Source: Porphyridium purpureum
Lineage: Eukaryota; Rhodophyta; Bangiophyceae; Porphyridiales; Porphyridiaceae
Reading direction: 5' to 3'
Assembly (NCBI GenBank): GCA_008690995.1
Contig: VRMN01000003.1
Location: forward strand, 496,001-560,000
Length of the DNA: 64,000 nucleotides
Shown here: piece after piece, positions 20,548 to 50,612 of the stretch
Layout of the letters: each line of letters starts with the position of its first letter
Position numbering within the stretch: the first letter of the stretch is position 1
The notes under the pieces: generated by a model
The model's input: the letters and a program-made list of their open reading frames with translations, nothing else
Databases searched by the model: none
Told to the model about the DNA's origin: nothing
Made by a program: the position numbers and the translations under genes

Positions 20548-21999
20548 CTACAAGGCAAAGACGAGCGCCGCCGACATGCCATAGAAGACCGGCGACATCC
20601 ATCGAAAGGTGACATCCAAACGACCACAAGTCGTCATGACTTTCTCAGATTCCCACGGCATACTCCGAGTGATGGAAGCAAAGATAAGCCCCGACTTTGC
20701 TTGTATTGGCTGAACCGCCTTCAAAGTGCCAAGACGCTGCTGCTTTGGAAACTCTGGCTGAGTGCTTGGAAGCTCCTTCTCCAAAGCTTCCCGAGCACGA
20801 CGCAGCTTGCGCGCTTGTTTCCGAGCGTAGGTGACCAAAGCGTATTCAACAAGGTGCAGGGTGCAAAACCCCATCGACACGAGCACGAAAACGTTCAGTT
20901 TCGTATCATACTGGATCGGCGGGAGCCCCGTCAAGATCGCATTATTCAAATTCACTAACGCCAGGACCGGGACCACAGCTGCAGTGACGCGCGCCGGCGC
21001 AGCCTCGGCACCAATGAACAACCCCACGTACGAAACAATGTACGAAATGACTGAAGGCACAATGCCGAAGATGGAGTAAAAATAATTGTTTCGCTGCATA
21101 TCATACAGGGCATGAAAGTAGCTACTGTTGCCGGTCAAGTCGGCGTCCCCAACAAGCAGGCCAATGGGCCTAGCAACTTTCTTCTCGCCCACTTCGTAAC
21201 GAAAATTCTGCAGCACAAAACTTGGCGGGTTGTTGATCGGCGGTATGACGGACGCATTTTCAACCATCGGAACCAGTACAGTCAAGCTCGCGGGGTCAAC
21301 AAACATGGCGAAATTAGCCCCACACTTTGAGGTCAAGTCCGCCGGTAGGTCCGCGAAATTGAACGCGCAACGCGTCAAGTACTGCACCCTCATGCTGGCA
21401 GCAACACGTCCCTCGGACGTCGAAATCAAGTGCATACCTCCACTTTGCCCCGCTGAGACGGCATCACGAATGTCAAAATCGTTCGTCGATATGCGGCGGT
21501 TTTCCATCTCCAGAATGGGGAACCAGAGCGTTAATGCATCTTGGTACAGATATTTGACCTCAGTGTCTCCTCCGTCCAGCGAGAACGGCTTGAAAGCCAA
21601 GCGACAATCGGTCCAGGACAGAGTGATGTCCATGAGTATGTTCATATCCTGCGCCTTCTCATTGACATGAAAAACATTAATAAAATCCACAAATACCAGC
21701 ACCTCAAGCGGGCCTTGCGACTGAAAATCCTGGAAGGTGCGGCGCCGCCAAACACGCGGATGCTCAGTGCTCACATACTCGGTCAACAAAAAATCGATCG
21801 CTTCCTTGGATGTTGTCACATTGGCGGGAAACTCTACCGAGCGCAGGCACTCGTTGGTGCCCCCGACCGGTGCTTGCGCGTTCGCAACGAACACAGTCGG
21901 CTTTCCTCGCCATCCCAGCGCCAAAATGAGCGCGAGAACGACACCAGGTGCCGCGTGAGTAACGATACGCGGCCACATACTACAGGCGCCAGTGCGCAT
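20548..21999 (-). CDS. Cys-loop pentameric ligand-gated ion channel homologue
   Basis: This 483-residue protein has the full layout of a Cys-loop receptor subunit. A signal peptide (to about residue 42) precedes a beta-rich ligand-binding domain with the conserved Trp and the WxDxRLxxxP-like WTDCRLAFKP (129-138), LWFPILEMEN (159-168), and a Cys loop C211 to C226 reading CAFNFADLPADLTSKC. The loop has 14 residues between the cysteines; animal receptors have 13. Membrane segments are M1 (about 306-329), M2 (335-358), M3 (367-391) and M4 (466-483), with a basic cytoplasmic M3-M4 loop of about 75 residues. M2 begins AAPARVTAA: Pro-Ala-Arg here is the selectivity-filter signature of anion-conducting members. 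The M2-M3 link GLPPIQYDTK matches the family. The ligand is unknown. Land plants lack such receptors, which makes an algal member unusual. Confidence 0.88.
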   Translation of the reverse strand: MRTGACSMWPRIVTHAAPGVVLALILALGWRGKPTVFVANAQAPVGGTNECLRSVEFPANVTTSKEAIDFLLTEYVSTEHPRVWRRRTFQDFQSQGPLEVLVFVDFINVFHVNEKAQDMNILMDITLSWTDCRLAFKPFSLDGGDTEVKYLYQDALTLWFPILEMENRRISTNDFDIRDAVSAGQSGGMHLISTSEGRVAASMRVQYLTRCAFNFADLPADLTSKCGANFAMFVDPASLTVLVPMVENASVIPPINNPPSFVLQNFRYEVGEKKVARPIGLLVGDADLTGNSSYFHALYDMQRNNYFYSIFGIVPSVISYIVSYVGLFIGAEAAPARVTAAVVPVLALVNLNNAILTGLPPIQYDTKLNVFVLVSMGFCTLHLVEYALVTYARKQARKLRRAREALEKELPSTQPEFPKQQRLGTLKAVQPIQAKSGLIFASITRSMPWESEKVMTTCGRLDVTFRWMSPVFYGMSAALVFAL

Positions 22000-22153: not shown

Positions 22154-23542
22154 TCAGCGCGACGCGAGGTTCGCGCGAAAACGCCCTGCGCATGTGCGGT
22201 CATTTTTGACAATGAGCAAGTCATGGAATGACTGCCAATGCGGCATATTCCTGCGCTGCAGGATGGTTTGTTCAGCCAGCTGGGCAAACGGCGAGTCCCG
22301 GCATTCTAAGAGAAATTCGGTCCTCAGAAAGCTAGTGTTCATCGAGCGCTTGTCCTGAGCGATGCCTAGAACGGCGAGCTGGTAGCCGGACGTGGCCATC
22401 TGAAGGCTGATGTTCACATCTGTTTCGATACCTTCTAGCAGCACGGACGTACGTCTGCTGATGCCTTTCCGCTTTCCAATCGTAGAGGCGTGCACCGGGA
22501 ATCCGGACGATGGGATAGCACGCGTGCGGAGCAGAGATGAGGATACCGGAACCACATCCACATAAGCAAGACTTACCTTACCCTGCATGTAAGGAATGTA
22601 CCGCACATCACGTGATGTGCACAGACAAGTCAGGAGCGGCGAGCTCAAGCAATGTTCACCGAAAAGCTCCAGAGACTTGTGCCCGGACACCAGAAAGCCT
22701 ACTGACGAGGACACGGCACCGACATCCGGGTCTCTTTCCAGCAGCGCCTGTGCCTCCTCAACCCATGCTAAGGACGGAAGAAATCGATCAGACGCATCCA
22801 GCACAAGCAACATATCAAGCTGGCTCACCCGAAGCGCTGTGTTGTAGCACTCAGAACGCGTCAAGCCGGGACGCACAAGAATCATGTGCTTTGACTTGGA
22901 AAAAACGAGCTGCAGGTTCTGCACGAAATGAGAGGCGCAGGTATCATGCTCAGCACTGGGCGCGTGACGAGAAGGAACAGCGGAGGCGGGCCGGCACGAC
23001 ACGCAGATGAAAAGCTCGTCGAGTGATAGCGCGCGGAGCTTTGTGGCGAATTCGGCCGTGCGTGAGACCAACGAATCGCTTGTGACTAGCTCTTCGAGAT
23101 CAGGAGCGACGTACACCACGCCGCCCACGCCTAATGAAAACATGTCGCTCTCGGAGACCTGTGGGCCGGAGCAGCAGGGCTGCGTGGCGATCGTCTTTGC
23201 AATGCGCTCGTCCTTGGAGCAGATGCCCATGCGATCTGCGTACACGAGCGTGCGGAAGGTCTCGAGGGAGCCGCTCCGCCGAGTGTGCACGAGCGCGCTG
23301 TACGCCAGCAAGCACAGGAACAGCGCGCTCAGCACGTCCACGCCGCGCCCGGCCTTGTGCAGCGGCAGCAGCACCCGGGCGTCCAGCAGCAGGCGCTGCG
23401 TGCCCTTGTCCACATGCTCCACCACGCGCTCCACGGTGCGCGACGTCCGTCCCATCCAGCGCCTCATGGGCGCCATCCTGCCTCCCTCCCGCTGAATCTC
23501 CATGCCGGAACTCCCCCGACCAACCGGATCAACGCCGCGCAC
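22154..23542 (-). CDS. GT2-like (GT-A fold) membrane glycosyltransferase
   Basis: This 462-residue protein is a probable type II membrane glycosyltransferase. One hydrophobic segment (VDVLSALFLCLLAYSALVHT, about residues 68-87) follows a basic N-terminus. The lumenal part contains a GT-A/GT2-like core: LTRSECYNTALRVSQLDMLL, then VLDASDRFLPSLAWVEEA, resembling the GxxxARNxG...FLDxDD...P.WL pattern of family 2, and DPDVGAVSSSVGF. The DAD-type metal site is changed to DASD. A C-terminal segment resembles the acceptor half of GT2 enzymes. The sugar and acceptor cannot be assigned. Other starts at Met14, Met23 or Met26 are possible. It is divergent from ALB3. Confidence 0.65.
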   Translation of the reverse strand: MRGVDPVGRGSSGMEIQREGGRMAPMRRWMGRTSRTVERVVEHVDKGTQRLLLDARVLLPLHKAGRGVDVLSALFLCLLAYSALVHTRRSGSLETFRTLVYADRMGICSKDERIAKTIATQPCCSGPQVSESDMFSLGVGGVVYVAPDLEELVTSDSLVSRTAEFATKLRALSLDELFICVSCRPASAVPSRHAPSAEHDTCASHFVQNLQLVFSKSKHMILVRPGLTRSECYNTALRVSQLDMLLVLDASDRFLPSLAWVEEAQALLERDPDVGAVSSSVGFLVSGHKSLELFGEHCLSSPLLTCLCTSRDVRYIPYMQGKVSLAYVDVVPVSSSLLRTRAIPSSGFPVHASTIGKRKGISRRTSVLLEGIETDVNISLQMATSGYQLAVLGIAQDKRSMNTSFLRTEFLLECRDSPFAQLAEQTILQRRNMPHWQSFHDLLIVKNDRTCAGRFRANLASR

Positions 23543-48319: not shown

Positions 48320-49337
48320 GGACCGACGTTTTTCCGTCTGCGACATTTTTTTTCCCAGCGAAGCTGACGTCTCAACGCTGACTCAACCCGTTGCGATTGT
48401 TTGAATTGGATTTGAATGTCTGGTTTTCTTTTCCAAGTCGTGCACAAGTCGTTCGCATCCGGGAAAGGATTTATCGTTGCCAGCGCATACGATCTTCGTG
48501 CGAGACCAGACACGTTCAGTTGGTGGCGGCGCCGCATGGACTTGCCACGCGGCCGCCGTCATCTCTAATGATCGACTATGACTTTCTTCATCATGTGGCT
48601 ATCTGATTCTTGGAGGAAAAGAAAGGGTGCTGAACGGGCGACGGAGCTTTGCCGAGACTTGTCGACTCGCTGGCTCTCGAGATCTCGTCCATGCAGCGGA
48701 TGTACGGGCCCTGCTCCGCTTCAACTTTCAGAATGCTTTTGTTTTGGAATCTAGCGTGCGCTTGTTTTGGCGGCTCGCTCTATCTGCGTGGACACGGACA
48801 GGAGGTTGGGGACGCATGTGACAACACTTGTCCGTTCGCAGATATTCTTGATCGGTCGGAAGCCGATTCGGGGCTGTAACTACGTGTATCTCATAGCATA
48901 AATAACCGCTTACTTTGTGAGACAGGCCAGTCAAGCCCATGTTGGGGCATGTGCGCGTGGCGCGAACGCCGTCACTATTGCGCGGCCAGCGCCTGCGGCC
49001 GCTCTTCCTGCGGTTTTGCGCGCGGCAGCATGGCAGCTTGTTGACCAACATGGCGCCGAAAGTGGCGGTTGAACCGGGTTCACTTCCACGTCGATTTCCT
49101 CCCCTCCCACCAACGGGGTACAGCGGCCGGGCAGAACACCCTCCCACAAGCGTCGGATTCGTCGACGCTTCTTGCACGCTTGCACGCGAGGCGCTTACAC
49201 GCGGTTGCGCCCACCCGCACCCTGTCACGCTCGCGCATGTAACCGGTCCTTCGACCAGCCCCGGCTCAATCCGGGAGGCTGCCCGGTCAAACCGCCATCA
49301 GCTTGCCGCGAAGGAGCACTCGCGTTGGCCACGAAAT
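48320..49337. other. intergenic between cyclin and globin gene
   Basis: About 1 kb between two plus-strand genes. The globin frame is open back to an ATG at 48939, but those 133 codons are Arg/Pro/His-rich and not protein-like, so I treat them as leader. Nothing else is visible. Confidence 0.45.
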
Positions 49338-50612
49338 ATGAGTGCCGAGGTGGACAACGGCGGCGTCGCCGCGCCGGCGGACGCATTGGACGAGCGTGCT
49401 CGGTTCGTGCTCGAGCGTGCCACCGTCGAATGCGTGCAGGCGTCGTGGCAGCTGCTCATGCAGCAGCGCTTCCCGTTCGCGCAGCACTTTTACGTGCTCT
49501 TGTTCGCCAGACATCCGCAGCTCGAGAGCATGTTTCCGCAGAACTGGGTCGCGCGCCAGCATCATCTCACAGATGTCCTGAACACAGTGGTGCACAGGCT
49601 GGGCGTGTTCGAGCAAGAGCTGGTGCCCGTCGTGCGTGCTCTAGGCCGCCGTCACGCATCGTACGGCGTCACGCAGTCCATGTTTGACCAGGTGGGCGAG
49701 TGTCTGCTCGAAACTTTGCGCAAGGGACTCAGAGACGCGGCCGATGAACACACCCTGGCCGCATGGGCACAAATGTACGGCGTTGTTGCCGCTGTTGCAT
49801 CTGCGGAGTGTCCTGTGTCGAAGAAGCATTCGGCCATGTGCACTCTCTGGTCAAGTGACGTGTTTCGGGCCGCTGTTTCTTCCAACAGTGCAGAGGTGTT
49901 CTGTGAGCAAGTGCGGTGCCCTGACTTCAAGTGGCAAGTGGTCGAGAAGACATGTGGCGCGGAAGAGCTACAGTTTGTGGTAGAGACGAGCGCAGAGCTT
50001 GACGTGAACACAAGTGGTGGCGAGAAAGGAGAGGCTCCTCTCATCTTCGACCTGACATCGTTAATGTCCGCGATTCTGGATGGCATGGGCGCCATCGTAG
50101 ATAAGTCATTCAGCAGGGGCGACCTTTCTGTGCACTGCTGTGATATTCTGCTTCAGCTCTCTAGGAGTGGCCTGACCGCGTCAAACGCGCAGGTTCTGTT
50201 CAAGTTCCTTCAGCGCGTGGTGTGCACTTTACTGCTTGCGTGCAATGTGGAACAATGCGGTCAATCACATCAACAAATCGAGTTGGAGCAGCGCTTTTGG
50301 GCGGACATTTTCGGGTGCTTTCTACAGCTCGTAGAAGAGCTCGAGACCGACTGGGAGCGACTGAGCACTCTTGAAGTCGAGCATATGTTGCCATGTTGCG
50401 ACGAAGAGTCGGCCTCCTCCAATCTTCCGCTCTCAAGAGCGCGTTCCAGTTTGAGATCGAACGACGGCCTTTCTTCGCGAAGATCGAGGTCCAAAAGTCT
50501 CAAATCCAACATCATCCGATTGCATGGCTACACCAGTAATTATCTTGAGCCCATCCCCGACGATGAAGAGGCTGAGGAAAGCTCGTCTAGCGACGAGGAT
50601 GCGGACAGCTGA
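49338..50612 (+). CDS. globin-domain protein with C-terminal extension
   Basis: The 424-residue protein begins with a globin domain (about residues 20-155). Helix motifs match flavohaemoglobin-type globins: HFYVLLFARHPQLESMF, then RQHHL and LGRRHASYGVTQSMFDQVGE. By alignment the haem pocket has Tyr52 at B10, Phe66 at CD1, Gln74 near E7 and His106 as the proximal F8 ligand, the set used by NO-detoxifying globins. There is no FAD/NAD reductase domain. The remaining 265 residues are mostly helical, and the part from about 235 to 345 looks like a weak second globin-like fold without a proximal His. The end is Ser/Arg-rich then acidic (EESSSSDEDADS), with possible phosphorylation sites. NO or O2 binding, and possibly sensing, is inferred. 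The frame extends to 48939. Confidence 0.78.
   Translation: MSAEVDNGGVAAPADALDERARFVLERATVECVQASWQLLMQQRFPFAQHFYVLLFARHPQLESMFPQNWVARQHHLTDVLNTVVHRLGVFEQELVPVVRALGRRHASYGVTQSMFDQVGECLLETLRKGLRDAADEHTLAAWAQMYGVVAAVASAECPVSKKHSAMCTLWSSDVFRAAVSSNSAEVFCEQVRCPDFKWQVVEKTCGAEELQFVVETSAELDVNTSGGEKGEAPLIFDLTSLMSAILDGMGAIVDKSFSRGDLSVHCCDILLQLSRSGLTASNAQVLFKFLQRVVCTLLLACNVEQCGQSHQQIELEQRFWADIFGCFLQLVEELETDWERLSTLEVEHMLPCCDEESASSNLPLSRARSSLRSNDGLSSRRSRSKSLKSNIIRLHGYTSNYLEPIPDDEEAEESSSSDEDADS

Follow-up and report, generated by a model that had tools for sequence, protein, structure and literature searches.

Two candidate anion-type Cys-loop receptor genes in the red alga Porphyridium purpureum

Two receptor genes in one algal genome

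We analyzed a 64,000-nucleotide stretch of the genome of the red alga Porphyridium purpureum (the window; assembly GCA_008690995.1), which comprises bases 496001-560000 of a 2,309,885-bp contig (VRMN01000003.1, here C2). On its minus strand, an open reading frame (ORF) at 20548-21999 runs from ATG to stop as a single uninterrupted frame and encodes a protein of 483 amino acids (aa), P0001. The protein carries Neur_chan_LBD (PF02931; E = 6.7e-9, 35.9 bits, gathering cut-off 26) followed by Neur_chan_memb (PF02932; E = 2.5e-11, 44.7 bits, gathering cut-off 28.1), the order expected for a pentameric ligand-gated ion channel (pLGIC). An AlphaFold2 (AF2) model with a predicted local distance difference test score (pLDDT) of 80 has a beta-sandwich ectodomain and four helices (Table 1). 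A preliminary description based on the DNA letters had proposed a complete channel of this family with a signal-peptide region, four membrane helices, a WxDxRL segment, a Cys loop and Pro-Ala-Arg (PAR) at positions -2' to 0' of M2. The sequence, the two domain matches above their gathering scores and the model helices bear this out. Read in antisense, this DNA has 6, 12 and 22 stops in its three frames; the ORF and its features are not a chance product.

P0001 retains all seven residues that are invariant over an 80-row alignment in which it is itself one row, among them P219, D221, R303, P315 and P360. The text of Jaiteh et al. 2016 (PMC4795631) describes the proline of the beta6-beta7 loop, the aspartate two residues after it, the pre-M1 arginine, the M1 proline and the M2-M3 proline as pLGIC features. 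The coupling residues P219, D221, R303, P360 and Y364 are all present.

A second pLGIC gene, which the preliminary description had missed, lies outside the window at 80329-82041 of contig C44 (L001:1153-2868, plus strand) and encodes a 571-aa protein, P0002. Searches of the whole genome (22,164,627 bp in 46 contigs) with PF02931, PF02932 and each of the two proteins found the same two loci only; these were six-frame searches that ignored introns, and further split genes are possible. The paralogs are 28% identical over 309 aligned positions. Both have PAR, a C-x14-C loop, WxDCRL and AVVPxLAL in M2, and the stretch between M3 and M4 is longer in P0002.

The surroundings of the P0002 gene contain two further ORFs of note. 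About 0.1 kb past the gene is an Argonaute-like ORF of 936 aa with Piwi, PAZ, ArgoN and ArgoL1 domains (L092:149-2959, minus strand). Nearby is a retrotransposon with a 1684-aa ORF (L092:3871-8925, plus strand) that includes gag, aspartyl protease and integrase, with reverse transcriptase below the cut-off.

Table 1 Features of the P0001 gene in the window
Feature	Position	Strand	Basis
Complete pLGIC subunit gene, P0001	20548..21999	-	Translation, Pfam, AF2 model
Signal-peptide-like N-terminal stretch, residues 1-41 (cleavage point guessed)	21877..21999	-	Hydropathy peak at residues 12-30; low-confidence model helix 18-29
Extracellular beta-sandwich (ligand-binding) domain, residues 98-303, PF02931	21091..21708	-	Pfam and AF2 model
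WxDxRL segment, W129-T-D131-C132-R133-L134; extra Cys132 common to the paralog	21598..21615	-	Sequence, alignment
Cys loop C211-C226 (C-x14-C) with P219 and D221	21322..21369	-	Sequence, alignment
Pre-M1 Arg303, partner of Asp221 in known pLGICs	21091..21093	-	Invariant in 80-row alignment; salt bridge as described in the text of PMC4795631
M1 helix, residues 305-328	21016..21087	-	AF2 model
M2 pore helix, residues 334-358	20926..21000	-	Alignment and AF2 model
P335-A336-R337 at -2', -1' and 0', codons CCG GCG CGC	20989..20997	-	Sequence, alignment
Pro344 at M2 7', common to the paralog	20968..20970	-	Alignment
M3 helix, residues 367-409	20773..20901	-	AF2 model
M4 helix, residues 451-482, adjoining the C terminus (483)	20554..20649	-	AF2 model

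The pore and the Cys loop

By alignment, both algal proteins have Pro, Ala and Arg at -2', -1' and 0', Thr at 2', Val at 6', Pro at 7', Leu at 9' (L346 in P0001) and Asn at 13' and 16'; position 20' is Thr in P0001 and Lys in P0002. PAR stands in P0001 in place of the cationic GE[K/R] before M2. For comparison we used 78 bacterial pLGICs, namely the best 80 of 121 loci from a scan with query A2, minus the fragments L064 and L078. Because the A2 patterns are built around two motifs, the WxP strand and the [FY]PFD loop, this set is biased to canonical loops. As the preliminary description had held for bacterial channels, PAR occurs in none of the 78; nor does Pro at -2', and Ala-Arg/Lys at -1'/0' is found in six. 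Proline at M2 7', a feature that the preliminary description did not remark on, is absent from all 78 and from nine reference receptors.

Both loop cysteines are present in P0001, which sets it apart from the Cys-less, prokaryotic type. Among the 78 bacterial proteins the first occurs once and the second never; the single case is L024, from a Planctomycetota contig (JABACD010000019.1). The spacing between the cysteines is 14 residues in both algal proteins (C236 and C251 in P0002) and 13 in each of seven aligned animal receptors, in agreement with the earlier statement that the loop is one residue longer than usual.

P0001 shares with animal glycine (GlyR), GABA-A and glutamate-gated chloride (GluCl) receptors the fold, the four helices, the two-cysteine loop, Leu 9', the pre-M1 Arg, the M2-M3 Pro and Tyr, and PAR at -2' to 0' (AAR in GABA-A beta2). 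It differs from animal anionic receptors in Pro 7', Val 6', Asn 13' and the additional loop residue, and its loop C stretch lacks the second cysteine pair found in GlyR and GluCl. With GLIC and other bacterial pLGICs the likeness lies in the overall fold and in the Pro loop of P0002 (RRFPFD; RRYPFD in GLIC), whereas these channels have neither the loop cysteines nor PAR (EAN at -2' to 0' in GLIC). Chimeras with a GLIC ectodomain are the top sequence matches for P0002 and for a profile of the pair. Compared by description only, the anionic-type receptors of Emiliania, Aureococcus and ciliates in the text of PMC4795631 are likewise from unicellular eukaryotes, with a pair of cysteines in the loop and a pre-M2 segment of anion type.

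According to the text of PMC8011927, the alpha7 nicotinic receptor is converted to an anion channel by -1' Glu to Ala, Val 13' to Thr and an inserted proline; compared with these conversion residues, the algal pores carry Pro, Ala and a polar residue at 13'. In measured nematode channels PAR accompanies anion selectivity (text of PMC9962794). The text of Jaiteh et al. (PMC4795631) warns that outside animals the pre-M2 motif alone is weak evidence and in general insufficient.

The ligand-binding region

In the aromatic box of P0001, F233 of loop B aligns, and the loop A and loop C positions hold the non-aromatic residues E166 and S292; the statement on loop C is weak because its alignment is uncertain and Y294 lies only two residues off. 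The loop C stretch is longer than in animal anionic receptors. The ectodomain contains four cysteines (51, 132, 211 and 226), so a putative second disulfide C51-C132 is possible. A GLIC-type proton sensor was considered and rejected: GLIC has at 11' a His, which we take to be the proton-sensing residue, and both algal proteins have Leu there.

The two ectodomains differ in how well they are kept. The Pro loop of P0002 is the canonical FPFD; that of P0001 is LPAD, which departs from [F/Y]PxD, and GW in P0002 is SF in P0001. The ligand-binding domain of P0002 also matches far better (1.8e-20 versus 6.7e-9). With two paralogs in one genome, P0001 might not work as a receptor alone and could instead be a partner subunit that needs P0002. 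We consider this possible but somewhat doubtful, given that P0001 keeps all seven invariant residues of the 80-row alignment and that many channels of the family are homomeric; it would also be compatible with our preferred explanation for the pair.

Genome context

Eight of the ten neighbouring ORFs that were scanned have family matches above cut-off, including CDC45, adenylosuccinate lyase and 60KD_IMP. The codon usage of P0001 correlates with that of the ten pooled neighbours at r = 0.84, within the neighbours' own range of 0.70-0.89. The phycobilisome linker family PF00427 is found at ten places in the genome, one on C2 and one on C44, the contig of the paralog; among 14 control genomes it is matched in Synechococcus elongatus alone. 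Proteins with PF00502 are located on C11 and C44.

These data bear on whether the channel could be animal DNA contaminating the assembly, an outcome that the preliminary description had named as refuting its proposal. The Protein Data Bank (PDB) sequence matches listed for P0001 are either animal receptors or chimeras that include them, as contamination would predict, but no near-identical animal protein is among them. The gene has CDC45, adenylosuccinate lyase, 60KD_IMP and other genes around it and a codon usage like theirs, and its paralog's contig also carries a linker gene. Contamination is very unlikely because a phycobilisome-linker gene shares the 2.3-Mb contig with the channel; we regard the chance of it as practically negligible.

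Lateral transfer of the gene into the alga from an animal or another protist is a separate matter. The sparse occurrence of pLGICs in protists speaks for it, and lateral transfers are suggested in the text of PMC4795631. Against it stand the neighbour-like codon usage and the low identity of P0001 to four animal anion channels (15.7-19.9% in the extracellular domain (ECD), 28.7-32.3% in the transmembrane (TM) region). The paralogs are merely 28% identical to each other, so any transfer would be old. Overall, we judge transfer to be quite improbable.

Relationship to animal and bacterial channels

We inferred trees from 34 sequences (two algal, four animal anionic, three animal cationic, 23 bacterial, GLIC and ELIC); the bacteria were picked from the 78 at below 45% identity, and protist sequences were not part of the trees. 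With all columns of the core alignment, the alga groups with the anion channels (support 93/82) and with all animals (98/95). With the PAR and Cys columns removed, all bacteria fall on one side (93/89) and the alga still joins the anion channels, at 89/82, which is below our starred level. The TM-only tree without PAR columns gives this grouping at 99/99.4, and in approximately unbiased (AU) tests on the same data placement with bacteria (p = 0.034) or GLIC (p = 0.013) is rejected, with the cation channels at p = 0.065. The grouping recurs in three variants of the TM tree: with P0002 alone (97/91), with P0001 alone (100/99) and with 25 of the other 55 bacteria (99/99.8).

The TM region of P0001 is also closer to the anion channels by score and identity. 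A profile of the four anion channels gives it 54.6 bits, versus 14.0-30.0 for five four-bacteria sets and 33.4 for all 23. With PAR masked the values are 43.4 bits versus 18.7-27.3 for ten bacterial sets. Its TM identity to the four anion channels, given above, compares with 25.5% for the best bacterial sequence.

Several results weigh against the reading as an anion channel. Without the PAR and Cys columns, placing the alga next to bacteria (p = 0.32), cation channels (0.36) or GLIC (0.28) is compatible with the core alignment in AU tests. The ECD-only tree does not resolve the question; animals group together without the alga at 50/43.5. ECD profiles give P0001 15.3 bits with the anion set, 15.9 with the cation set and 15.3-22.4 with five four-bacteria sets; the values for P0002 are 32.9, 36.4 and 35.7-48.8. 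The TM region of P0002 scores 40.9 bits with the anion profile, 22.6-34.3 with the five four-bacteria sets and 44.4 with all 23 bacteria, and the bacterial sequence most like it (27.7% identity) exceeds the four anion channels (21.3-23.4%). Five bacterial pores score 34.3-47.3 bits with the PAR-masked anion profile (best of 40 shuffles, 6.6), so the 43.4 bits of P0001 and the 30.5 of P0002, the latter against 22.6-42.8 for ten bacterial sets, are not specific. The aromatic ligand box is poorly kept, and a proline at 7' is unusual in a pore helix. Finally, all 50 PDB matches listed for the P0001 model are anionic animal receptors, but such receptors are among the PDB entries in the training data of AF2.

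Most other AU tests are similarly permissive. With all core columns, the alga with bacteria has p = 0.15 and with cation channels 0.30; for the ECD alone, the alga with anion channels has p = 0.31, with cation channels 0.28 and with GLIC 0.37. The TM variants give, for bacteria and cation channels respectively, 0.18 and 0.16 (P0002 alone), 0.21 and 0.017 (P0001 alone) and 0.35 and 0.41 (other bacteria). Altogether, three of the 16 tests of rival placements fall below 0.05 and 13 are not significant.

One way to account for this pattern is that PAR and the cysteines arose independently in the red algal lineage, near Cys-less or bacterial channels, with C-x14-C and the 7' proline as signs of it; selectivity might then differ from that of animal channels. 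The extra residue before the second loop cysteine would fit, as would the AU tests over the whole length that allow placement with bacteria or GLIC. So would the ECD of P0002, to which four of the five bacterial four-sequence profiles give a higher score than both animal profiles do (mostly true of P0001 too), the bacterial scores of the PAR-masked anion profile and the published caution about the pre-M2 motif. The TM tree without PAR columns and its two rejected placements argue otherwise, as does its recurrence in the three variants, though bacterial placement is allowed in each of them. Two independent marks, PAR and both cysteines, would also have to coincide, and either is found in none of the 78 bacterial proteins. 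We consider independent origin unlikely. In these comparisons the pore of P0001 leans to the anion group and neither ectodomain does; the pore of P0002 leans that way in the tree, not by score or identity. That the algal pair forms a clade with the anion receptors of animals is favoured, not proven.

We also searched more widely. Of 386 genomes in the phylum of Aphanocapsa locus L007, two match P0002 at E <= 1e-5; one match is L007's own, the best identity is 25% and there is no close kin. An origin from the cyanobacterial endosymbiont was rejected on these grounds. Searches of 5.8 billion protein sequences with P0001, the two-paralog alignment and residues 300-400 returned the query itself only and missed even the paralog; this negative is weak evidence because candidates must share exact 5-residue words (best 8000 candidates scored in the P0001 and alignment runs, 712 in the run with residues 300-400). 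No encoded relative was found in viral contigs (queries A1, A2 and A3) or in bacterial and archaeal genomes (query A1).

A proposed mechanism

On the evidence of sequence and model, P0001 is probably one subunit of an anionic-type Cys-loop receptor, a ligand-gated anion channel. The interpretation in the preliminary description is partly supported. Channels of this family are pentamers with a ligand site at the subunit interface, a gate at 9' Leu and an anion collar. Five subunits would assemble, either as homomers or mixed with P0002, and an extracellular ligand or condition would act where the beta-sandwich domains of adjoining subunits meet. Movement may then run via the Pro loop, which forms a salt bridge with the pre-M1 Arg in pLGICs (text of PMC4795631), and via the M2-M3 loop to open the gate at Leu346 (9'). 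The PAR collar at the cytoplasmic mouth and the polar Asn350 (13') would make the pore favour anions, probably Cl-. In a marine cell whose membrane potential is negative, channel opening could lead to anion flow and a shift in voltage, turgor or pH.

Prior reports and evolutionary meaning

The preliminary description had called a chloride-type receptor in a photosynthetic eukaryote notable. Its presence in a red algal genome stands, but it is not the first of its kind. Aureococcus is photosynthetic, and haptophyte plastids are of red origin, as are those of stramenopiles (the last according to the text of PMC11085791). Anionic-type Cys-loop receptors were listed for Emiliania and Aureococcus, besides ciliates, by Jaiteh et al. 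2016 (PMC4795631), so photosynthetic eukaryotes were already known to have receptors of this sort. The inventory in the text of that paper places protist anionic-type receptors in haptophytes, heterokonts, ciliates and opisthokonts and counts Chlorophyta among the holders of pLGICs; as of 2016 it gives no biological role for any unicellular member. A 2024 paper citing it (PMC11085791) calls the pLGICs of diatoms, coccolithophores and chlorophytes Cys-less in the text available.

The string 'rhodophyt' is absent from the main text of PMC4795631, whose three uses of 'alga' concern green algae. The text available of PMC7935092 and PMC8618852 names no red algal receptor, and the single Cys-loop passage of PMC6259924 concerns land plants. 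We found no red algal report of such receptors in the open literature; subscription papers, figures and database annotations lie outside this search, and a prior record is possible. By sequence, the pair adds red algal members with variant traits, namely the x14 loop, the 7' proline and WxDC.

Anion-type Cys-loop receptors are the fast inhibitory receptors of nervous systems. Two anion-type genes in a single-celled red alga suggest that the receptor type is much older than nerves. A pair in an alga with a primary plastid would extend the Cys-loop group to Archaeplastida. This is relevant to the age of the two cysteines and the anion pore, which may go back to the last common ancestor of eukaryotes or may have travelled with red plastids. 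Should the pair indeed be part of the anionic clade, the receptors of haptophytes and heterokonts could have arrived together with their red plastids. In the fullest version of this scenario, which we think rather unlikely, the red algal ancestor (and so Archaeplastida) had anionic-type receptors, the red endosymbiont handed them over to haptophytes and heterokonts, and the algal receptors combine an older ectodomain with an anion-type pore and their own 14-residue loop and 7' proline. The alga can also be cultured, and as a single-celled organism it lends itself to studying the role of such a receptor where there are no synapses.

Other genes in the window

Upstream of the channel gene and on the same strand, a 462-aa ORF (22154-23542, minus strand) matches no Pfam family at E <= 0.001. 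A 557-aa ORF at 48939-50612 (plus strand) contains a globin domain (residues 183-286, E = 1e-11).
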